Origin: Sinorhizobium glycinis
Lineage (GTDB): Bacteria > Pseudomonadota > Alphaproteobacteria > Rhizobiales > Rhizobiaceae
Direction of reading: 5' to 3'
DNA length: 64,000 nucleotides
NCBI RefSeq assembly: GCF_001651865.1
Contig: NZ_LPUX01000060.1
Span: 310,001 to 374,000 of the forward strand
The notes beneath the pieces were generated by a model. The model worked only from the letters and a program-made list of their open reading frames with translations, was not told the DNA's origin and did no database searches. This document shows, one piece after another, positions 1-14,108 of this stretch (its first letter is position 1; each line of letters starts with the position of its first letter). Position numbers and translations under genes: made by a program.

Positions 1-288
1 CGCGGTGGCATCGAGGTCTATCGGGAGCCCCTTTCCCAGTCATCAGCGTGGGCGTCTTGTGCGGCAGAGTGGGGTGCGGGCCCGGGTTTTAAAGGGCGAG
101 TTGCACAACGGCTTGAGGACTGGTTCACGACGCAGACGGGCTTGAAAAGCACCCTGGAAGACATGATCAATAGCCTCTGGGAGAAAACAGTGATTGCCCC
201 GTTGCTTCGCCTAGCAGAAGAGAGCGCCCCCGAAGCCGGTCCAAGTTCGGATAATGTAATCGCCTTCCCAGGTAGAGCATCAGCCTAA
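1..288 (+). CDS. C-terminal part of an unidentified protein (5' end outside the window)
   Basis: Frame 1 is open from the first base and stops with TAA at 286-288, giving 95 codons without an internal stop. The deduced tail is acidic and helical in character (stretch GLKSTLEDMINSLWEKTV) and ends in NVIAFPGRASA. I do not recognise the family. It lies on the same strand as hsdM and stops about 130 bases before it, so it may be the preceding gene of the same island. It could be a chance open frame, but the low frequency of unlikely codons and the clean end before an operator-like palindrome argue for a gene. Confidence 0.5.
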   Translation, partial: RGGIEVYREPLSQSSAWASCAAEWGAGPGFKGRVAQRLEDWFTTQTGLKSTLEDMINSLWEKTVIAPLLRLAEESAPEAGPSSDNVIAFPGRASA

Positions 289-307
289 GCCTCGCCCGCT
301 CACCCCT

Positions 308-333
308 ATCATGCGGAAACAATTCCGCATGAT
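308..333. promoter_or_regulatory. Operator-like palindrome upstream of hsdM (site A)
   Basis: An 11-base inverted repeat (ATCATGCGGAA / TTCCGCATGAT) with a four-base spacer lies 84 bases before the hsdM ATG. Its inner part, GCGGAA...TTCCGC, is shared with palindromes at 8637, 14167 and (core only) 16147. The position suggests a repressor site controlling the restriction-modification operon, but no regulator gene is visible nearby. Confidence 0.45.
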
Positions 334-416
334 ACCTGAGGCAATCCACTGGATTTAGTTTTAAAGATTTGGCCTGTACTTTGCGCCGGCAACACAAAGA
401 GACTGAACAGCACACC

Positions 417-2807
417 ATGAACCACTCTGCCCATAACAAGCTCGTTTCCTTCATCTGGTCGATCGCTGACGACTGCCTCCGCGACGTCTATGTTCGCGGC
501 AAATATCGTGACGTCATCCTGCCGATGGTCGTCCTCCGTCGTCTCGACACGCTGCTCGAACCCACCAAAGCGGCCATTCTTGAGGAAGTTCGCTTCCAAC
601 GCGAAGAAATGAAGTCCACGGAGCTGGACGATGCTCCCCTCACGGCGGCATCCGGGTATGTTTTTTACAATACCAGCAGGTGGACGTTGAAGCAGCTCCA
701 TGCGACCGCCACGAACAACCAGCAGATTCTGTTGGCGAATGTTGAGGAATACCTCAGCGGCTTCAGCGAAAACGTCAAGGAGATCATCGGCCGCTTCAAG
801 CTGCTAGAGCAGATGCGACACATGGCAAACAAGCAGGTCCTTCTCGACGTACTCGAGAAATTTATCTCGCCCTACATAAACCTGACGCCCCACGACGCCG
901 AAGACCCGGACGGCAACATGATGCCGGGCCTGTCGAACCTCGGCATGGGCTACGTTTTTGAAGAGCTAATTCGCAAGTTCAATGAAGAAAACAACGAGGA
1001 AGCCGGGGAGCACTTCACGCCGCGCGAGGTGATCCGCTTAATGACCCACCTCATCTTCGACCCGATCAGCGACGAGTTACCTCCGGTCATGACCATCTAC
1101 GATCCGGCCTGCGGTAGCGGCGGTATGCTGACCGAGGCCCAGAACTACATAAAGGACCCCGAGGGGCCCATCGCTGCCAAGGGAGACGTCTACCTATATG
1201 GCAAGGAAATCAACGACGAGACCTATGCCATCTGCAAGTCCGACATGATGATCAAGGGAAACAACCCCGAGAATATCAAGGTCGGCTCCACCCTCGCGAC
1301 GGATGAGTTCTCGGGCCATCGCTTCGATTTCATGCTTTCAAACCCACCTTACGGCAAAAGCTGGAAGAGCGATCTGAAGTACATCAAAGACGGCAATGAC
1401 GTCATCGATCCCCGCTTTCAGGTCGAGCTGACCGACTATTGGGGCAACAAGGAAACCGTCGACGCCACGCCACGCTCCAGCGACGGCCAGCTCCTCTTTC
1501 TGATGGAGATGGTGGGCAAAATGAAGCCCATCGCAAACAGCGTCATCGGTTCGCGCATTGCCAGCGTTCACAACGGCTCCAGCCTGTTCACCGGCGATGC
1601 CGGCAGCGGCGAATCCAACATTCGCCGCTACATCATTGAAAGGGACATGCTGGACACCATTATCCAGCTGCCAAACAACCTGTTCTATAACACCGGCATC
1701 ACCACCTACATTTGGCTGGTGACCAACACCAAGCCCGAGGCCCGTCGCGGCAAGGTTCAGCTGGTCGATGCCAACCTCATGTATCGCAAGTTGCGCAAGA
1801 ACCTTGGTGACAAGAACTGCGAATTTAGGCCCAAAGACATCGGCGACATCATTGCCGCCTATCTAGCCTTCCAGCCGGTCGAGCGGGAACTGGATGCAAA
1901 TGACGACCCGACCGGCATCGCGGTGCAAATATTCGACAACACCGATTTCGGCTATCACAAGGTCACTATAGAGCGTCCTGACCGTCGCCGTGCCCAGTTC
2001 AGTGCAGAGCGGCTGGAACCTTTGCGTTTCGACAAGTCCCTGCGCGAGCCGATGGAACATCTATGGGCCGAGCATGGCAACAAGGTCTATGAGCCCAGTT
2101 TCCTGAAATCGCAGGCCAAGGCGATCCAAGCCTGGTGCGAGGAGCGGGAGTTCGCCCTCAACGCGAAGCAGCGCGCCAAGCTTGTCGATATCGGCCTCTG
2201 GCTGCGGCAACGCGAGCTGATCGAGGTTGGCCATCAGCTGATGCAGACCATCGGCACCGACGAGACGCCGGATTTCAACGCTTTCCGGGACAAGGTTAGC
2301 GGGGTGCTAAAGGCTCGCAAAATCAAGCTCACGGCGACCGAAAAGAACGCAATCCTGAACGCGGTCAGTTGGTATGCCGATGATGCGGAAAAGGTGGTCG
2401 ACAGTGTCAACCGGTTTACCCAGGCGGAGCTAGAGTCCTTCGCGGCGCGGCTGGGCTGCGGTATCGACGAACTGGGCGACTTCGGGCTTTACGTTCAACC
2501 CGATGGCAGTTGGCTCACCTATGAGAGCAGCACTGATTTGCGCGACAGCGAGGCAGTGCCGCTGAAGGATAGTATCCACCGCTATTTCAAGGCCGAGGTA
2601 GGACCGCATGTGCCCGAGGCCTGGATCAACCTCGACACGGTGAAGATCGGGTACGAGATCAGTTTCAACAAGTATTTTTACCGCCACAAGCCACTGCGGA
2701 GTCTTGAGGCGGTGAAGCGCGACATTCTGGCGTTGGAGCGAAAGGCCGATGGGCTGATCGCCAATATCCTTGGGGTTAAGCCCACCGACCTGTCGGAGGC
2801 GGTGTGA
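417..2807 (+). CDS. hsdM: Type I restriction-modification system methyltransferase subunit HsdM
   Basis: The 796-residue product is the modification subunit of a type I system; it methylates adenine in the target chosen by HsdS. The SAM-binding motif DPACGSGGM is at about residue 229 and the adenine-methylase motif NPPYG at about 309, after an N-terminal HsdM helical domain. It has a long C-terminal extension of some 230 residues after the catalytic domain, as in the long HsdM class. The open frame reaches back to a TTG at 369, but the ATG at 417 (MNHSAHNKLVSF) fits the family N-terminus. hsdS overlaps its stop codon (TGATG), indicating translational coupling. Confidence 0.96.
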   Translation: MNHSAHNKLVSFIWSIADDCLRDVYVRGKYRDVILPMVVLRRLDTLLEPTKAAILEEVRFQREEMKSTELDDAPLTAASGYVFYNTSRWTLKQLHATATNNQQILLANVEEYLSGFSENVKEIIGRFKLLEQMRHMANKQVLLDVLEKFISPYINLTPHDAEDPDGNMMPGLSNLGMGYVFEELIRKFNEENNEEAGEHFTPREVIRLMTHLIFDPISDELPPVMTIYDPACGSGGMLTEAQNYIKDPEGPIAAKGDVYLYGKEINDETYAICKSDMMIKGNNPENIKVGSTLATDEFSGHRFDFMLSNPPYGKSWKSDLKYIKDGNDVIDPRFQVELTDYWGNKETVDATPRSSDGQLLFLMEMVGKMKPIANSVIGSRIASVHNGSSLFTGDAGSGESNIRRYIIERDMLDTIIQLPNNLFYNTGITTYIWLVTNTKPEARRGKVQLVDANLMYRKLRKNLGDKNCEFRPKDIGDIIAAYLAFQPVERELDANDDPTGIAVQIFDNTDFGYHKVTIERPDRRRAQFSAERLEPLRFDKSLREPMEHLWAEHGNKVYEPSFLKSQAKAIQAWCEEREFALNAKQRAKLVDIGLWLRQRELIEVGHQLMQTIGTDETPDFNAFRDKVSGVLKARKIKLTATEKNAILNAVSWYADDAEKVVDSVNRFTQAELESFAARLGCGIDELGDFGLYVQPDGSWLTYESSTDLRDSEAVPLKDSIHRYFKAEVGPHVPEAWINLDTVKIGYEISFNKYFYRHKPLRSLEAVKRDILALERKADGLIANILGVKPTDLSEAV

Positions 2808-4084
2808 TGACGCTTGCCGCTTACCCAACCTATGACAGCTACAAGGACAGCGGTGTCGATTGGATCGGCGAGATTCCAAATTCATGGGATCAGGTTGCAA
2901 ATAAGCGTCTGTTTAAACTCCGCAAGACACAAGTGGGCAAGCGTTCATCTGAATACGATCTGCTTTCGCTAACGCTTCGCGGCATAATCAAACGCGATAT
3001 GGACAATCCTGAAGGGAAGTTCCCTGCCGAGTTCGACACTTATCAGGACGTTCGCCCGGGGGATTTCGTATTTTGTCATTTCGATGTGGAAGAGACACCG
3101 AGGACAGTCGGCCTATCCGCCCTCGATGGCATGATTACCGGAGCGTACACCGTATATGAACTGAAGGCAGAAGCGGATGCGAGCTTTCTTTTTTATTTCT
3201 ATCTTAATGCCGACGCCGACAAGAAGCTGCGCGGCCTCTACAAAGGGCTGAGAAATACAATCCCAAAGGAGAGCTTTGGAGCATTCAAAACCCCGTTGCC
3301 CCCCTTACCGGAACAACGCGCCATCGCGGCGTTTCTGGATGAGAAATGCGCCAAGGTGGACGAGGCGGTGCAGATAAAGGAAGAGCAGATCGCGCTTCTG
3401 CGCGAACGGCGGCAGATTCTGATCCAACAGGCCGTCACCCGCGGCCTGAACCCCGACGCGCCCTTAAAGTACAGCGGCATCGACTGGATCGGCCAAATCC
3501 CTTCGCATTGGGAACTGCGTCCAAACAAGCACATTCTGCGGCTCAAGAAGTCCCTTGTGGGTAGGCAATCTTCCGAATACGAACTTTTGTCATTGACCCT
3601 CCGCGGGATCATCAAGCGTGACATGGAAAACCCCGAGGGCAAGTTCCCAGCAGAATTCGATAGCTACCAAGAAGTAAGCCCTGGCGACTTCGTGTTCTGC
3701 CATTTCGATGTCGAGGAAACACCTCGAACCGTCGGGCTTTCCGAGTATTTCGGCATGATTACCGGCGCTTACACGGTTTACTCAGTGCCCGAAGGCATCG
3801 ACCGGCGATTCCTGCTGCACTTCTTCATCTGCGCTGACACGGACAAGAAGATGCGTAGTCTGTACAAGGGCTTGCGCAACACCATCCCAAAGGAAGCCTT
3901 CGGCGCATTCAAGACACCACTACCGCCGCTTGAAGAGCAGCGCCAAATCGTGGCCCACATCGATGAGGCGTCGCGCAAGATTGAAGACGCTATTGTCATC
4001 AAGGAAGAGCAGATCGCCGCGCTCAAAGAACACAAGACATGCCTGATCAACGCGGCGATCACAGGCAAGATCAAGGTGGCGTAA
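2807..4084 (+). CDS. hsdS: Type I restriction system specificity subunit HsdS with two near-identical target recognition domains
   Basis: This 425-residue subunit selects the DNA target for the HsdM/HsdR complex. It has the usual TRD1-helix-TRD2-helix plan: TRD1 about residues 25-172, spacer coiled coil 172-215, TRD2 about 235-380, C-terminal helix to 425. Unusually, residues 41-170 and 249-378 align without gaps and, by my count, agree at about 100 of 130 positions, including PGDFVFCHFDVEETPRTVGLS. Their codons differ at most synonymous sites, so this is not a recent duplication. Similar TRDs predict a bipartite target with matching inverted half-sites. The ATG overlaps the hsdM stop; a GTG one codon earlier is also possible. 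Confidence 0.95.
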   Translation: MTLAAYPTYDSYKDSGVDWIGEIPNSWDQVANKRLFKLRKTQVGKRSSEYDLLSLTLRGIIKRDMDNPEGKFPAEFDTYQDVRPGDFVFCHFDVEETPRTVGLSALDGMITGAYTVYELKAEADASFLFYFYLNADADKKLRGLYKGLRNTIPKESFGAFKTPLPPLPEQRAIAAFLDEKCAKVDEAVQIKEEQIALLRERRQILIQQAVTRGLNPDAPLKYSGIDWIGQIPSHWELRPNKHILRLKKSLVGRQSSEYELLSLTLRGIIKRDMENPEGKFPAEFDSYQEVSPGDFVFCHFDVEETPRTVGLSEYFGMITGAYTVYSVPEGIDRRFLLHFFICADTDKKMRSLYKGLRNTIPKEAFGAFKTPLPPLEEQRQIVAHIDEASRKIEDAIVIKEEQIAALKEHKTCLINAAITGKIKVA

Positions 4085-4093
4085 GGGGGGATC

Positions 4094-7000
4094 ATGGTAA
4101 CCAACACTAAGGAAGTGGCTCTGGAACAGGCGATTCAGCGGCACCTGACGGGCACGACAACCGAGGACCTCGCCAGCCACCCTGCGCCGGTCAATCACGG
4201 CTACTTCCAATTCGGACGGCCTTCCGATTTCGACGCTCAATATGCGATCGACACAAGGCTCTTCTGGGAGTTTCTTGAGAACACGCAAGGAAAGGAGCTG
4301 GCAAAACTGCAGGACCAGAGCCCCGCCGACTGGCAGCGCAAGATACTCGAACGCTTTGATCGGCTAGTAAAGAAGAATGGACTTCTGCATCTGTTGAAGA
4401 AGGGGCTTGCCGTCGATGACGCAACCTTCACGCTCATGTACGCCGCCCCTCTCGCTAGCTCGGCGGCCAAGGTCCATGAAAACTTCGCCGCCAATATCTT
4501 CAGTGCTACCCGACAGGTCCGCTATTCGGAAACAAATCCAGGCGAAGAGATCGACATGGTCCTTTTCGTCAACGGACTGCCGCTGATCACTGTAGAGCTG
4601 AAGAACGCGTGGACCGGTCAGACCGCTCGCTACCATGGGCAGAAGCAGTATCGCGACGGCCGTGATGCCACCCAGCCCCTTCTTCAGTTTGGTCGCGCAT
4701 TAGTGCACATGGCCGTGGACACCGACGAGGTGTTCATGACGACGAAGCTTGCCGGGCCTGCAACCTTCTTCCTGCCTTTCAACAAGGGACATAACGAAGG
4801 CGAGGGCAATCCACCTAATCCAAATGGCCACAAGACCGCCTATCTGTGGGAAGAGGTGTTCACCAAGGAAAGCCTGGCGGGCATCATCCAGCACTTCGTG
4901 CTGCTGGAAGGAAAGGCGACGGACCCTCTGGCCAAAAAGTCGATGATCTTCCCACGTTACCATCAGTTGGACGTCGTGCGCCGGCTGTTGTGGCACGCTG
5001 CAACGAACGGCGTCGGACAAAGCTATCTGATCCAGCATTCGGCGGGTTCCGGAAAGTCGAATTCGATCACCTGGGCGGCGTATCAGCTAATCGAAACCTA
5101 TCCGGTATCTGCCAGCGTGGCGGGCGGAAAAGGACTGGATCAACCGCTGTTCGACAGCGTCATCGTTGTCACCGATCGACGTCTTCTGGACAAGCAGCTA
5201 CGTGATAACATCAAGGACTTCTCCGAGGTCAAGAACATCGTCGCGCCAGCCATGCGTTCCGCCGACCTGAAATCGGCGCTTGAGAACGGCAAGAAGATCA
5301 TCATCACGACGATCCAGAAGTTCCCCTTTATTATCGAAGGGATCGCCGACCTCAGCGACAAGCGCTTCGCAGTGATCATCGACGAGGCGCATAGCGGGCA
5401 AAGTGGCAGCGCGCATGACAACATGAACCGCGCGATGGGCGCGAGCGACGCAGACCCTGACGAAGATGATCCGCAGGATCGGATTCTGGCCGCGATGCAA
5501 TCGCGCAAGATGCGTGGCAACGCCTCCTATTTTGCCTTCACGGCGACGCCGAAGAACACAACGCTCGAGAAGTTTGGGGAACGTCAACCCGACGGGAGCT
5601 TCAAGGCCTTCCACCTCTACAGCATGAAGCAGGCCATTGAGGAAGGCTTCATCCTGAACGTCCTCGCAAATTATACGACTTACAAGAGCTATTACGAAAT
5701 CCAGAAGTCGATAGCGGACAATCCGTTGTTCGACACCAAGAAGGCCCAGAAGAAGCTTCGGGCCTATGTGGAGCGCAGCCAACAGACCATCAACACAAAG
5801 GCCGAAATCATGCTCGACCATTTCATCGAGCAGGTTGTAACGCCCAAGAAGCTGCACGGCAAAGCCAAGGGTATGGTGGTCACCCAGAACATTGAGTCGG
5901 CGATCCGCTACTATAAAGCCCTGACAAAGCTATTGGCGGATCGGGGTTATCCGCTCAAGGCCTTGATCGCATTTTCCGGTGAAAAGGAGGTCGACGGTGT
6001 AACCCACACCGAGGCCGACATGAACGGTTTCCCGGAGTCGGATACGAGGGACAAATTCGACGAGGATGAATATCGGTTGCTTGTGGTCGCAAACAAGTAT
6101 CTGACCGGTTTCGATCAGCCAAAGCTGACGACCATGTATGTCGACAAGAAGCTGCAACATGTTCTGGCCGTGCAGGCTCTGTCACGGCTGAATCGCTCTG
6201 CACCGAAACTCGGCAAGCGCACTGAAGACTTGTTTATCCTCGACTTCTTCAACGACGTCGCTGATATCAAGTCAGCCTTCGATCCATTCTACACGGTCAC
6301 CACCCTGTCGTCGGCGACGGATGTGAATGTGCTTCATGAGATCAAGGACGCACTCGACACGGTGGGCATCTATGAGTGGCAAGAGGTAGAGGATTTTGTC
6401 GCCCGCTACTTTGCCGGTGACGATGCCCAGTTGCTTAGCCCGATCATCGATGCGGCCGCTGATAGGTTCAATCACCAACTGGATTTGGCCGACAATGATA
6501 AGATCGATTTTAAGATCAAGGCGCGCCAGTTCGTGAAGATTTACGGCCAGATGGCGTCAATTATGCCATTCGAGGTCGTTGAGTGGGAAAAGCTCTTCTG
6601 GTTCCTGAAGTTCCTGATTCCAAAACTGCATATCACGGACCCAGACCAGGATATGCTTGATGAGCTTCTGGAGGCTGTGGACCTGTCGTCTTACGGGCTT
6701 GAGAGAACCCGATTGAACCAAGACATCGAGCTTGACGCAACGCCGACGGAACTTGACCCGCAAAACCCCAATCCCCGCGGTTACCGGGATGGCGAACAGG
6801 AGCGGGACCCGCTGGATGATATCATTCACACCTTCAATGAGCGCTGGTTCCAGGGATGGGGCGCGACACCGGAGGAGCAACGGGTGAAGTTCATCAATGT
6901 CGTGAACGGCATCAGAGCGCACCCCGATTTTACCGAGAAATACGAGGAGAACACCGACCCCTACAATCGCGGACTCGCGCTCGAGAAGATGATGCAAGAC

Positions 7001-7117
7001 GTGATGCTGAAACGCCGTAAGGAGGAACTCGAGCTATACAAGCTCTTCGCCTCTGATCCGGCCTTTAAAGCTGCTTGGAGTCAGAGCATCGAAACGGTCC
7101 TTAGGACCGGCATGTGA
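4094..7117 (+). CDS. hsdR: Type I restriction endonuclease subunit HsdR
   Basis: The 1007-residue product is the translocase and nuclease of the system. The N-terminal PD-(D/E)xK nuclease domain shows EIDMVLF at about residue 152 and PLITVELKN with E and K near 167-169. The SF2 helicase motor has Walker A HSAGSGKSN at about 315 and DEAH at about 429, followed by FTATP. The C-terminal helical part ends in an intact frame. It begins nine bases after hsdS, with a G-rich ribosome site just before the ATG. All catalytic motifs are present, so the hsdMSR operon appears functional. Confidence 0.96.
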   Translation: MVTNTKEVALEQAIQRHLTGTTTEDLASHPAPVNHGYFQFGRPSDFDAQYAIDTRLFWEFLENTQGKELAKLQDQSPADWQRKILERFDRLVKKNGLLHLLKKGLAVDDATFTLMYAAPLASSAAKVHENFAANIFSATRQVRYSETNPGEEIDMVLFVNGLPLITVELKNAWTGQTARYHGQKQYRDGRDATQPLLQFGRALVHMAVDTDEVFMTTKLAGPATFFLPFNKGHNEGEGNPPNPNGHKTAYLWEEVFTKESLAGIIQHFVLLEGKATDPLAKKSMIFPRYHQLDVVRRLLWHAATNGVGQSYLIQHSAGSGKSNSITWAAYQLIETYPVSASVAGGKGLDQPLFDSVIVVTDRRLLDKQLRDNIKDFSEVKNIVAPAMRSADLKSALENGKKIIITTIQKFPFIIEGIADLSDKRFAVIIDEAHSGQSGSAHDNMNRAMGASDADPDEDDPQDRILAAMQSRKMRGNASYFAFTATPKNTTLEKFGERQPDGSFKAFHLYSMKQAIEEGFILNVLANYTTYKSYYEIQKSIADNPLFDTKKAQKKLRAYVERSQQTINTKAEIMLDHFIEQVVTPKKLHGKAKGMVVTQNIESAIRYYKALTKLLADRGYPLKALIAFSGEKEVDGVTHTEADMNGFPESDTRDKFDEDEYRLLVVANKYLTGFDQPKLTTMYVDKKLQHVLAVQALSRLNRSAPKLGKRTEDLFILDFFNDVADIKSAFDPFYTVTTLSSATDVNVLHEIKDALDTVGIYEWQEVEDFVARYFAGDDAQLLSPIIDAAADRFNHQLDLADNDKIDFKIKARQFVKIYGQMASIMPFEVVEWEKLFWFLKFLIPKLHITDPDQDMLDELLEAVDLSSYGLERTRLNQDIELDATPTELDPQNPNPRGYRDGEQERDPLDDIIHTFNERWFQGWGATPEEQRVKFINVVNGIRAHPDFTEKYEENTDPYNRGLALEKMMQDVMLKRRKEELELYKLFASDPAFKAAWSQSIETVLRTGM

Positions 7118-7171
7118 CGAGTTGATCGAATGCAAAGCCTGATGCGCTAACTTGTTTGGAGCCGGCGAGGA

Positions 7172-8443
7172 ATGTCAATCACGACAACGGTATTGTTTCA
7201 ACGGCCTCAACAGGAGATCGCGACACTCATCCGCGATCGACTTTCCCGATCCGTAGCCACGCGGATTGTGACGGGTTTCGCCACGCCGGGCGGACTGGCA
7301 GAGATCGGTGCTCCGATACGAGCGAATCCTGGCAGCCTTGAAACCTTCGTGATCGGCGCGTCCACGTATCCTGGATTTCAAGCGCTCGACAATCTTTTGG
7401 CCGCGGGCGTGCCAGTTGATCGGTTGCATGTCCATTTGGGATTTAGTGCGCCTTCCGGCACACCGAAGAATCCGGTGGTGCGTTACCATCCAATGCTGCA
7501 CAGCAAAGTCTACTACATGGAATTGCCCGCTTCCAGCGCATGCGCATTCATCGGGTCACACAATGTGACAGCTTTTGCATTGGGCGGCAGCAACGGAGAG
7601 GCTTCGGTCCTTATTGAAGGTGATATGCACGCGCCCGAGTTCGCCGCTATTCGAAGCCATGTCGATGAAGCGCAGAGACAGGCAACGCCCTATTCTCCAA
7701 CCATGAAGGAAGGATTTTCGTGGTGGTTTAAGGAGTATGTGGAGGGCCTCAAAGCCGAAATACGCATCCCGACCGATTGGGTGACAGTTCGCACCATTCT
7801 CGCGTTCTCGCATATTCAGGGGGGGCGCAGTCCAAGGGTCGGCGAAACAATTTACTTCGAAATCCCCGCCGGTATCGAGGAAATTGAATCACTCAAGACT
7901 GAAGTCCATTTGTTCCTTTACGGCACCATGCCTGCCGATCCGATGAGCGCCATCAATGCCGTCAGGAGCGCAAGCAGACGCTACACATGTCAGACCATTG
8001 GAGTTGAAAACGGGCAAGGCAATCGAGAAGTATCAGTGGACTGGGTCATTGATGGTAGTTGGGCTCTCACTCCGGTGCCTTCCGCAACATTCCGCCCATC
8101 TACGCCTGCTGGCATGCAGCAGGTGCGAGCCAAGGTGGTCGATACGTCGCTGCCATCCTACGAGTATGCGTTTGAGCGAGAGCGGACAGGCTGGGACCCG
8201 GTATTTTCTGAGATAGACGTGATTGACGCGTTGGAGCCACCGCTATTGGAGGAGGTTGCTCGTCGTGAGGCGCGCGGTGGTCGTCAGATTGACGCGTGGA
8301 GGCTAGTCAGCGCGATCGAACCGCGTTCCGGTGCACATTTGGAAACTGACCAAAAAGCTCTCAACCGGGCGATTCCCGAGTCCGGAGCATTCATTTTGGT
8401 CTCTTTGCGTAGACGGCGATCCGATAGCAAGCGCGAGGGTTAG
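7172..8443 (+). CDS. PLD-like (HKD-type) protein downstream of hsdR
   Basis: The 423-residue protein has an N-terminal phospholipase D-like fold. HPMLHSKVYYM at about residue 107 gives the H-x-K pair, and the following FIGSHNVTAFAL with GSNGEASVLIEG is the usual second half of a PLD active site in nuclease-type members. Only one HKD-like motif is seen, as in PLD nucleases that dimerise. The C-terminal 200 residues are unlike anything I recognise. It starts 54 bases after hsdR on the same strand with an AGGA site before the ATG, so it is probably the fourth gene of the restriction operon, perhaps an accessory nuclease. The link to restriction is inferred from position. Confidence 0.7.
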   Translation: MSITTTVLFQRPQQEIATLIRDRLSRSVATRIVTGFATPGGLAEIGAPIRANPGSLETFVIGASTYPGFQALDNLLAAGVPVDRLHVHLGFSAPSGTPKNPVVRYHPMLHSKVYYMELPASSACAFIGSHNVTAFALGGSNGEASVLIEGDMHAPEFAAIRSHVDEAQRQATPYSPTMKEGFSWWFKEYVEGLKAEIRIPTDWVTVRTILAFSHIQGGRSPRVGETIYFEIPAGIEEIESLKTEVHLFLYGTMPADPMSAINAVRSASRRYTCQTIGVENGQGNREVSVDWVIDGSWALTPVPSATFRPSTPAGMQQVRAKVVDTSLPSYEYAFERERTGWDPVFSEIDVIDALEPPLLEEVARREARGGRQIDAWRLVSAIEPRSGAHLETDQKALNRAIPESGAFILVSLRRRRSDSKREG

Positions 8444-9920: not shown

Positions 9921-12698
9921 TCAGGTCGGAGGACTGCCGTGAGCCATGAGCAGGGCGTTCACCTCCTCACCGGTCATGGCACCGACATCCTTCAGCCGTT
10001 CGGCGATGGCGATCAGAGCATCCCGTCGGTTCTCCAGCAGACGGCAGGCCATGGCTTCGGCCTTAATGAGACGTTGGTTGACTCGCTCGGCGAGCTGCCG
10101 GTCGAGACTGAGCTCGTTGATCGAGCCAGCCACGGACCGATAGAGCAACGGCTGATGATCGGAGAAGCCAAGTCGGGTTTCGGCGGCGATCGCATGTTCG
10201 GTCGCCTTGGCCAGATCGCTATCATCGTATCCACCAGCCCCGGCCACCGCCTCGCCAAAGATCAGCAGCTCTGCCGCCCGACCCGCCAACATGCAGGCGA
10301 CGCTGCGCATCAGCCAGTCCTGCGTCTGTGGTAGAAGTTGATGCTGCCGGCTGACCACCTGCCCCATTCCTCCGATCCCGATGCTCACGGTGATGACCTC
10401 GGCGATCCCCATGTCACAGAATGCGATCGCATGACCGACCTCATGAATGGCGGTGCGCCATCGCAGATCGTCCGAGAGTTTCATCTGGCCGGCAAGCAAG
10501 GCATGCTCGAGATCGCCCCAGGTCAACAACCGCTGTTGCCTTCTGGTTTTCCGGCGAACTTCCCGAACAAGCCGTTCGATGTCGGCACCGGTACTGCCAG
10601 TCGCAAGCAACGCCAGCCGTCGAAGATCGCGGTGCTGCTCAGGTGTGATCGTCTGGATGACTTCAGGCATCTTGGGAAACTCCGCGATTGGATTGGTCGA
10701 TGACACCTGCATCGCTGCCGACATCAGCCTGGTGCTGCCATGCTGTTTCGATCGTTTTGGGGCTGCCCGACGGCGCAGACGCCAACACACCAGCCAGATC
10801 GGCTCCGAGATGGTGAGCGAGGATGCCGGTCAGCGCCTCCATATCGGCATGGGGATCGCGACATGCTTTTCCAGCCGCCCGGATCGCAACAGTGCCGGAT
10901 CGATCTTTTCGGGGAGGTTCGTCGCCGCGACGACGATCACACCATCGGTTTTCGAGGTTCCATCGAGAAGCTCAAGCAGCCGGTTGATCAGCGTGCGCCA
11001 GTAATCATCATGCTGCTCCCGTCGACCTGCGGATCGGCTTCCGATGTTATCGACTTCGTCAATGAACAGGATGACCGGAGCATTTTCCCGCGCCAGTTCG
11101 AAGGCCTTGGACATGCGCTTGAGCACGTCACCGAGATAACCGGGCTCAAGCCAGGACGCCACCGACGTCACCAACAACGGAATCTGCAAACTATTGCAGA
11201 GCGCCCGGGCATAAGTCGTCTTGCCGGTGCCGGGCGGTCCCGACAGGATCAGTTTCGTACTCATCTCGCTCCAGGGCAGCCTGCCGCCGCGCCAAAGCTG
11301 AAGGTCCTCTTTCAGGTTGAGCGCCCAGCCCCGCGCCTCGCCATAGCCCGAGAGTGTCTCGACCCGCAGCTGACGCAACCGGCTGTGTTCCGGATTGGCC
11401 GGATCAACGGATGCGCTGCCGCTGCCCTCCTTCGCGGATGTCTCCGCCGGCTTCTCCGGCTGAACGACATCAATCCCATCCACGGAATTTGGTGGGTCAT
11501 CACCGTCCTTGATCAAAAACCGGCTCTTGACCTTCGGCCGCCCCGACCGATCGCTGCCGCGCCCGGAGCCGCGGCCATCATCATCGTCATCGTCCGACTT
11601 GTCGGAGGAGCGCGCCCGCTCGCCGAGGACTTCAAGGATCGACAGAATGTGTTCGAGAGCGCGCCCGGGACGAACAGCCAGCGCCAGCGCATCGATCGAG
11701 AGGCCCTCCAGATCGAGCGCCATCTTCTTCAATTGTTGCAGCGACTGCTTCGGCGCGATACCGCAACACATCTGCAGGAGTTCCGCCATCAGTTCGTGAT
11801 CGAGACCACCGCACTCAAGCACAAGGTCGGGCGTCATGGACACAAAGGGTGGAAGCGCGGTCCTTGTCTCATCGGCAAGGACCAAAGGTGCTGTGCGCTC
11901 AAGCAGGACATCGACAAGGAAGCGACTCAACGACCGCTCGACCGCCTTCGGCACATCTGTTCCGGCAAGTGTCTTGATCGTCTTGCGGGTCTTTCCGCGG
12001 CGACGATCACCGTAGCCATCCGAGAGCGGACTGCTGCGATGGACGTCTTCGAGCTTGGTCCAGTAAGGAACGATCAGGCCGTCCTCGAGCATAAGACCGA
12101 AGCGGCGTTCGAAACGGCCAACCGGCGCTTTGATCAGCACGAAGGCTCCAGGGTTTCGAAGGACGGCTGACAGTGCCGACAAGTCGGGAACACTTGAACC
12201 AACGGCACGGGCGACCAGGAGGGCGACGGCGACATGGGCGACACTCGGCGGAGCAAGCTGCTCCCGAAGCAGTGCCCGGAATTCGCTGGACGCCGATGGT
12301 GTCTTCTCCAGCCCCTTCGCAGCAACGGCCTGTCTCGATTTCAGACCCGCGGCGGCTCGATTTTCTCGGTCGGTCCGACCCTTCGGGGCAGAACGAAGTT
12401 TTTCATGGACGGGTTCTGCGGGAAGGTCCTGGATCAGCACGTCGATAGCCGTCGTCTTGTGCGGTGCCTTTCCGAGACGTCGCATGATTTCGGCGCGCGC
12501 CTTGACCGGATCGGCATGGAGCAGACGCAAGGATTGCTCCGGGACACGCCAGACCGTCCCGGTCGTCTCGTCGCCGGCGACGATGAAGTCCGCCTCCAGC
12601 AATCCGGCGACGGCGGCGCGCTCGTAAAGATCGAGGATGGCCAGGCGGCGGATGCGGGCAAGCAGGTAGCGTGTGATGCGATCAGTCAGGGTTTCCAT
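9921..12698 (-). pseudogene. FtsH-like AAA ATPase / M41 zinc protease, interrupted by two compensating frameshifts
   Basis: The minus-strand gene begins at the ATG at 12698, overlapping the stop of the 138-aa gene. About 480 residues of N-terminal region, including an Asp-rich linker, precede the AAA module: Walker A GPPGTGKTT at about residue 485, Walker B VILFIDEVD at about 543 and ATNLPEKIDPALLRSGRLE. The frame stops at 10830. The peptidase part resumes in the same frame, with zinc motif HEVGH at 10431-10445. The conserved link between them (MEALTGILAHHLGADLAG) is found only in another frame, so one indel lies near 10842 and a second, restoring one between about 10690 and 10790. No membrane segment was seen, unlike true FtsH. 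It may be decayed or a sequencing artefact. Confidence 0.75.
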
Positions 12699-13114
12699 CA
12701 CGCACCCTCCCCAATTCCATGGGCCCCACGAGGTGTGGGCATCCCATTGATGTCCAGCAGCTTGCGATTGCCCTCGAGCCAGTCACGTAACATCAACGCC
12801 GTCGGATCGCCGGCCGCACACAGCGCAAGAAGTTGCTCACGGAAGATTTTCGGGATGCTGGTTATGGCGGTACCCTTGCGTCGGGCGAAGCCGATCACGA
12901 CCTGGGCGACGATCGCCGGATCGGGCAAAGCATTGGGCGTTGCCGCGCACATGGCCATGGCCTCAGGAATGGCCAGCGATCGGGCTGCGCCGCGGTTCGT
13001 CGCCTCTTGCAGCTTCGCCAGTCGCTTCAGCCCGCTGGATGGCTTCGGAGTCCAAGGTGCCTGGTGCGTAAGGTTGTTGGGGAAAGGGATCACGTTGGAA
13101 GTGTGTCGGCTCAT
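12698..13114 (-). CDS. 138-residue protein of unknown function in the nuclease/AAA-protease cassette
   Basis: I do not recognise a family. The protein opens with MSRHTSNVIPFPNN, has a basic middle (GLKRLAKLQEATNRGAARS) and a helical second half (FREQLLALCAAGDPTALMLRDWLEG). No signal peptide or membrane segment is visible. Its TGA overlaps the ATG of the AAA/M41 gene by one base (TGATG), so the two are translationally coupled. It starts 82 bases after the end of the nuclease-like gene. A small partner, adaptor or substrate-recognition role for the protease is a guess from position only. Confidence 0.75.
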   Translation of the reverse strand: MSRHTSNVIPFPNNLTHQAPWTPKPSSGLKRLAKLQEATNRGAARSLAIPEAMAMCAATPNALPDPAIVAQVVIGFARRKGTAITSIPKIFREQLLALCAAGDPTALMLRDWLEGNRKLLDINGMPTPRGAHGIGEGA

Positions 13115-13196: not shown

Positions 13197-14108
13197 TTAG
13201 CCCGTGCCGGCCTGTGGGATGCGGGCAAACCCGACCCGGATTTGCCCGCGACCGGCTGGCTGGTGAACTTCCGTGATCGCGCCAGCGTCTGAGTCACACA
13301 TCTCGTTTCCGTTCGCGTCTGCGATATCCGCCGAGGCACCGCGACGAGCCCGTTCCTCCTTTGGCCCGGCAAAGGCATTCCGAGCCAGTTTCCAGTTCTC
13401 GTCGATCCGGCCATGGAAGCGTTCGCGCAGCATGCCGATCGCCTTCCCCGCCCCGCCAACCTCGACGAGATGATCGAGATCGCTGAGCGGCCAGACGCCA
13501 CCGGTAACGTCGGAGCGCTGGTTTTCCGCGTTGAGGATGACGACGCGGACTTCTTCGACCACCAGCCGATGATGGTCGCGGTAGAGGAAATCGGGAACAA
13601 CGAGCGCCGCAGCCAGCATGCGGCTCTTCAGTTCGTTGATACGGGAGACTTCGTAAGAGCCGAGGCTACGCTTGACGTCGATGACGTGCGCGAGCTTCGT
13701 CTTGCGGTTCACGATGACCAGGTCCGGCGTATACGTTTTGCGCCCGCCGGTGTCTGCATCGAGCGTCAGCGATCGAAAGTGTTTCGGATCGTTTTTCTCG
13801 ACCAGCTCGAGCGCCGTCTTCGTGACCGGCAGCCGCAGATTTTGCGCCAGCACCACGAGGTCCGGGTTCAGGTCGGCGATGATACCAATGCCGCGCTCGA
13901 GCAGCCGCCCTTCCTGGATGGGAATGGCGCGCAGGATCGCGGCGGCATCCGAGACCCCGCTGGCGAGCGCCTTGCAAAGAGCCCCGGCGGAGAAGGGTTG
14001 CGACGAAAGCTCGTCGATGAGGACTTCGAAGCGCGGCCGGAGGGCGTCGAGATCGACGGCATGCGGATAGGCTGGCGCGCCAGGCGCACCGGAAGGAATG
14101 GTCGTCAT
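13197..14108 (-). CDS. Candidate PD-(D/E)xK nuclease-fold protein, first gene of the AAA-protease cassette
   Basis: The 303-residue protein has a helical N-terminal half. Its core, TYTPDLVIVNRKTK followed by AHVIDVKRS, fits the PD-(D/E)xK pattern, with D129, D144 and K146 as candidate catalytic residues. A second basic strand-helix region follows (LVVEEVRVVILNAE). The last 50 residues look disordered. It starts at ATG 14108, about 60 bases after palindrome site C, and heads a leftward cassette with the 138-aa and AAA/M41 genes. The nuclease call rests on motif spacing alone; a non-catalytic nuclease-like fold is possible. Confidence 0.6.
   Translation of the reverse strand: MTTIPSGAPGAPAYPHAVDLDALRPRFEVLIDELSSQPFSAGALCKALASGVSDAAAILRAIPIQEGRLLERGIGIIADLNPDLVVLAQNLRLPVTKTALELVEKNDPKHFRSLTLDADTGGRKTYTPDLVIVNRKTKLAHVIDVKRSLGSYEVSRINELKSRMLAAALVVPDFLYRDHHRLVVEEVRVVILNAENQRSDVTGGVWPLSDLDHLVEVGGAGKAIGMLRERFHGRIDENWKLARNAFAGPKEERARRGASADIADANGNEMCDSDAGAITEVHQPAGRGQIRVGFARIPQAGTG

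Follow-up and report, generated by a model that had tools for sequence, protein, structure and literature searches.

A Type I specificity subunit from Sinorhizobium glycinis with two homologous target recognition domains and a predicted symmetric target

Background

We report the computational analysis of a Type I restriction-modification locus from Sinorhizobium glycinis whose specificity subunit, HsdS, contains two copies of one type of target recognition domain (TRD). The locus lies near the start of a 64,000-nucleotide stretch of contig NZ_LPUX01000060.1, the whole of which is referred to here as the window. The twin-TRD arrangement of this HsdS is real and uncommon, and it has precedents. 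Comparison with its relatives indicates that the two domains are homologues of long standing that domain exchange has united in one protein. The most likely reading of the arrangement, in which we have considerable confidence, is that the enzyme would recognise a symmetric target made up of a half-site, a spacer and an inverted half-site.

That identical TRDs lead to palindromic targets is already established. The rotational symmetry of HsdS is explained in a review which, in the part relevant here, also gives palindromic targets for truncated EcoR124I and EcoDXXI, for NgoAV and for BstXI (Loenen 2014, PMC3874165). The origin of palindromes from S subunits with identical TRDs is called 'commonly accepted' in a study of H. 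pylori, in which a construct with the identical TRD2 and TRD3 of JHP1422 methylated the palindrome AAGN5CTT (Krebes 2014, PMC3936762), and engineered half-length S subunits of an S. aureus system methylated the palindromic sequence ACCN5GGT, according to the relevant text of that report (PMC6158711).

Results

The operon and its surroundings

The genes hsdM, hsdS and hsdR form a complete operon, in which all three are open and of full length. The N6-adenine methyltransferase subunit is encoded by hsdM (414..2807, + strand; 797 aa, the start at 414 being a chosen codon within a longer open reading frame from 369), with N6_Mtase (2.8e-54) and HsdM_N (2.5e-22) domains above the Pfam cut-offs and a PADLOC match to MTase_I (3e-255). 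The ATG of hsdS (2807..4084, +; 425 aa) shares one base with the hsdM stop codon, and the product, the specificity subunit with the twin TRDs, matches Methylase_S in Pfam and Specificity_I in PADLOC (2.4e-107). The restriction and translocase subunit, encoded by hsdR (4094..7117, +; 1007 aa), has a nuclease N terminus and a SWI2/SNF2-type motor, with Pfam matches to HSDR_N, SWI2_SNF2 and T1R_D3-like domains above cut-offs. The curated NCBIfam cut-offs are not reached, by HsdM for TIGR00497 (hsdM; 89.1 against 242.75 bits) or by HsdR for TIGR00348 (hsdR; 5.3e-63, 213.6 against 284.55 bits), and we therefore do not file the two proteins under these families. With an HsdS in which the model and the structural matches described below reveal a pair of TRDs and, beside them, a pair of long conserved helices, the locus looks, from its sequence, like an ordinary, intact Type I restriction-modification system.

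The operon of Rhizobium sp. BK399 (L018) is collinear with positions 1-8443 of the window at 87-88% nucleotide identity, TRD1 excepted, and the identity to the window proteins is 90% for its HsdM and 95% for its HsdR. This collinearity, together with the three open, full-length genes, argues against silence of the system or a loss of its restriction or methylation function, an explanation that we regard as improbable.

Directly after hsdR lies a gene (7172-8443, +; 423 aa) with weak matches to a RE_NgoFVII PLD domain (0.0045, below cut-off) and to ZacB (7.3e-5, PADLOC); because the stretch shared in order with L018 includes this gene, it may belong to the Type I operon as a companion. Further downstream, on the reverse strand, an M41 peptidase gene (9921-10790; Pfam) adjoins a separate gene for an AAA ATPase resembling IetA (10830-12701; PADLOC 9.6e-21), and to judge from these matches the pair are FtsH-like parts split over two genes. 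A 303-aa product (13197-14108, -) has a weak match to a BsuBI/PstI restriction endonuclease domain (0.011, below cut-off). Upstream of the operon, a 13 kb piece of the same genome (L158), of which the final 1 kb is window 1-1000, has among its genes those for a reverse transcriptase, a ZacB-like PLD protein, a helicase of the UvrD type and an HTH protein of 732 aa. The Type I operon may thus lie within a defence island.

Two copies of one TRD type in a single chain

TRD1, in the N slot (residues ~28-165; 2888..3301, +), and TRD2, in the C slot (residues ~235-373; 3509..3925, +), were delimited from the self-alignment of HsdS and its AlphaFold2 model. In the self-comparison, an offset of 208 matches at 134 of 218 positions, the last of which is the stop, and the runner-up offset at 41 of 404. 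The initial annotation of this DNA had counted about 100 agreements in a gap-free match of residues 41-170 with 249-378; our recount gives exactly 100 identical positions of 130, which places two TRDs of one homology group in a single chain, and the unbroken identity of 21 residues that it noted from PGDF (PGDFVFCHFDVEETPRTVGLS) is present in both halves. The protein is one intact chain of 425 aa with two TRDs, as opposed to the half-length, single-TRD S chain of the NgoAV type.

In-register direct repeats such as these could have arisen if a single TRD had recently been duplicated in tandem within hsdS. The nucleotide sequence speaks strongly against this: 70 of the 107 same-residue codons are unlike between the 153-aa domains, in keeping with the annotation's remark that synonymous codons mostly differ, and in the LRGIIKRDM segment, its own example, the copies differ in 6 of the 8 variable codons. 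Between the domains dN is 0.22 and dS was returned as -1, and because the program gave no value for dS we take it to be saturated. The longest exact run of DNA shared by the halves of hsdS is just 17 bases, in the helix region, and the AU test rejects a sister grouping of the window copies (p-AU 9.85e-07). We consider a fresh duplication extremely improbable, as the annotation had also held.

In the AlphaFold2 model of HsdS (11 sequences; mean pLDDT 83.9, pTM 0.74) there are two TRDs with a long helix after each, and DSSP on the model places the first long spacer helix at residues 167-212 (3305..3442, +) and the second at residues 375-418 (3929..4060, +). The loops at 69-75 and 275-283, which lie at equivalent places in the two TRDs, have pLDDT values below 50. 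Each of the top 10 Foldseek matches is an S subunit of Type I or Type IIB, or a chain from a complex containing one, and the matches include 1yf2, 3okg, 2y7c, 5ybb and 7vs4, a DNA-bound PacII complex. The TM-scores of 0.36-0.62 (query length), with rmsd of 6-12, would fit a common fold in which the arrangement of the domains is different.

Twin halves are uncommon among HsdS proteins

From 249 genomes of the phylum, searched with PF01420, 110 HsdS loci were fetched, a non-random sample that comprises the best-scoring among the matches listed, one per open reading frame, with a few short or interrupted ones left out. Three of these reading frames are short (L053, L118 and L139) and 107 are of full length, and among the latter, within the matches listed, none has halves that reach 60% identity over a stretch of 90 aa or more. 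An identity of at least 40% between the halves is reached by 6 of the 107, and one of at least 50% by two: L143, the best long match in the survey (125/232 residues, 54%), and L149, whose match is short, at 91 residues only (54/91, 59%). The same measure gives 132/194, or 68%, for the window HsdS. One surveyed protein, L061, was scored as a 626-aa reading frame although the search lists 440 aa; at 440 aa it falls outside the 15 best half-against-half scores. Halves that are 40-54% identical across 160-242 residues are found in the HsdS proteins of L143, L095, L132 and L089, which are candidates for additional symmetric or near-symmetric targets.

Relatives with the same TRD type

Searching with both TRDs, at one genome per species, gave 10 loci, and the set was extended with E. 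coli and Xanthomonas plasmids; 3 of the 11 plasmid records with a TRD at least 60% identical were inspected, plus 1 of the 15 E. coli genome records. Among those inspected, and with L041 excluded as a repeat of L027, 14 proteins, including that of the window, carry a TRD that matches a window TRD at 60% identity or more. The TRD type occupies the N slot only in six (L016, L019, L022, L025, L026 and L027), the C slot only in five (L018, L020, L021, L023 and L028) and both slots in three, namely the window, L017 from Yoonia maricola and L024 from a Flavobacteriales MAG. The TRD is the same in L026 and L027. Where a second match was found in the 11 single-slot proteins the identity of the partner TRD does not exceed 38%, and in four of them (L016, L022, L027 and L028) there was no second TRD match. 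A related hsdM is present in 60 of 5426 E. coli genomes and the TRD in 15, of which 11 cover at least 80% of the query. A class-wide HsdM search of the alphaproteobacteria at a strict cut-off returned the strain's own genome only (1/385), a scan of viral contigs no relative, and a phage collection one record (L042). In the E. coli loci L027, L028 and L041, hsdS is separated from hsdR by a DUF4268 gene; the window operon is without one.

The movement of TRDs between slots is described for H. pylori (Furuta 2011, PMC3077401), and the window hsdS might be one of several forms of a specificity-shuffling locus. A search of the strain's own genome with the whole HsdS (68 contigs, E 0.001) found no second relative and returned the window gene alone, which makes such a locus very improbable; PF01420 at 1e-8 misses even the window hsdS in this genome, which might therefore hold a second, unrelated hsdS.

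Origin of the twin

Among the fetched relatives, TRD1 is nearest to the N-slot TRD of L016 (86%) and TRD2 to the C-slot TRD of L018 (89%), and the window copies are 71-74% identical to each other in this comparison. L016 and L018 each have one such TRD only, in the slot that matches the window copy. The window and L018 operons differ in a block that covers TRD1 (2865..3335, +, edges approximate), in which the nucleotide identity, taken in steps of 60 bases, drops to 0.42-0.60 from a level of 0.87 before rising to 0.92, and for which BLAST places the breakpoints at 2871 and 3309. The difference looks like a clean exchange of the whole TRD1 domain. The twin state probably came from assortment of whole TRDs, a single TRD type being shared by the N-slot and C-slot pools, and not from a fresh duplication.

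The initial annotation had offered two causes for the similarity of the domains, selection or the joining of old homologues. Joining agrees with the AU test, with the same-slot relatives and with the TRD1 block. The cores of single-copy TRDs are equally conserved, and the conservation of the core is thus no evidence of selection for symmetry as such.

As to which of the two lineages, window or L018, changed at TRD1, the window TRD1 is closer to its counterpart in L016 (86%) than HsdM is (79%), which would favour a gain in the window lineage. The values for L017, with TRDs 78% and 80% and HsdM 78% identical to those of the window, would also fit a twin of greater age in which L018 has had one TRD replaced. 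The AU test rejects the copies of L017 as sisters (p 0.004) and does not reject those of L024 (p 0.157). In the TRD trees, many inner branches of which are poorly supported, the alphaproteobacterial copies group together whichever slot they occupy (support 98/96), and three slot changes are needed by the best tree, two of them forced by well-supported branches. A single ancestral twin for the whole family was also considered; slot-wise clades are weakly rejected (p 0.0234 and 0.0147) in a test of 7 N copies and 8 C copies in 18 rows, with groups named after an earlier tree had been inspected.

Discussion

The predicted target

The single HsdS chain would present its two TRDs, which are of one type and have diverged, in opposite orientations, set by the HsdS fold on two antiparallel helices with one HsdM docked per helix. 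An M2S enzyme of this kind would read a half-site and its reverse complement with a fixed spacer between them and would methylate one adenine per half, on opposite strands; with HsdR, it would restrict unmethylated DNA. The sequence, the operon, the predicted fold, the TRD phylogeny and the block difference are the observed parts of this scheme; we infer that both TRDs have the same half-site and that the enzyme is active, and the spacer length and the order of events are inferred likewise. The annotation's prediction of a symmetric bipartite target is well founded in the symmetry of HsdS and the palindromic precedents, with the amendment that the second half would repeat the first as its reverse complement, where the annotation writes the reverse. 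A symmetric site would carry a methyl group on both strands, and an absence of m6A would point to a silent system and would not count against the symmetry.

A symmetric target is the most likely because the central core of the TRD is nearly the same in both copies: in residues 52-117, a span picked after viewing the alignment, 7 of 66 positions differ. It is put forward as a prediction because even TRDs that resemble each other closely can read half-sites one base apart. No TRD of known specificity matched, the solved structures giving four S subunits, all of them distant. The main rival is a target that is nearly, not exactly, symmetric, in which homologous TRDs read half-sites differing by at least one base, since the relevant text of Furuta 2014 describes similar TRDs that differ in this way: in TRD homology group a of H. 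pylori, a handful of residue changes go with a half-site of CCA or of CTA. The window copies differ at 44 of 153 aligned positions, of which 8 lie at 51-107, and at positions 36, 45, 78, 81 and 132 one of them has a residue seen in none of the 13 other TRDs. Against this, 36 of the 44 differences fall outside the centre, at 28-46, 118-143 and 156-180, mostly at positions that vary among those 13, and the central stretch is nearly uniform in all the TRDs aligned. Over the whole alignment, 69 of 153 columns are invariant across 15 such TRDs from both slots and from Pseudomonadota and Bacteroidota. We think it unlikely that the half-sites differ, and retain the exactly symmetric target as our reading.

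Comparison with known systems

BstXI is a Type II system. The S subunit of M.BstXI is like that of the window in having two similar, non-identical TRDs, which, in the wording of the review's account of this enzyme, 'evidently' read the same half-sequence to give a symmetric site (Loenen 2014, PMC3874165). The window is unlike it in that hsdM and hsdS stand with a translocating hsdR in a Type I operon. NgoAV, truncated EcoR124I and EcoDXXI share with our prediction a palindromic bipartite specificity from two alike TRDs; as described there, these are dimers of half-length S subunits, whereas the window has one fused chain (PMC3874165).

Hpy99XV (JHP1422/JHP1423) of H. pylori J99 resembles the window system in carrying a same-type TRD pair in one S chain. 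The native S subunit has three TRDs, with the alike pair identical and a duplication proposed by the authors in the relevant part of their report (PMC3936762), whereas the window HsdS has two TRDs that are old homologues at 71-77%. In HPV225_1544 of H. pylori, TRD type e occupies both slots (Furuta 2011, PMC3077401, in its text on this allele); this is a Type IIG allele, for which that text gives no target, and the window system is Type I. TRD B and TRD P of S. aureus are virtually identical and occupy different positions, one the first and one the second, and the relevant text of that report does not describe them as sharing one HsdS (Cooper 2017, PMC5399793). What is added here is that the twin of the window appears, from sequence comparison, to consist of old homologues joined by domain exchange, and that twins of the same TRD type are found in two further organisms.

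A bolder reading, which we hold to be doubtful, is that recurring fused twins are selectively favoured and that those of the window and of Yoonia descend from an old shared twin ancestor. A symmetric target may survive the loss of either half, as a deletion to a half-length S subunit may still dimerise on the same site, and there could have been an old alphaproteobacterial twin ancestor of window and Yoonia, most of whose other descendants would since have had a slot overwritten.

The understanding of Type I specificity is unchanged by this locus. The half-site would be that of a TRD type found in alphaproteobacteria, on E. coli plasmids and chromosomes and in a Bacteroidota MAG, and the window HsdS is a case for how far the identity of TRDs predicts the identity of half-sites across slots.
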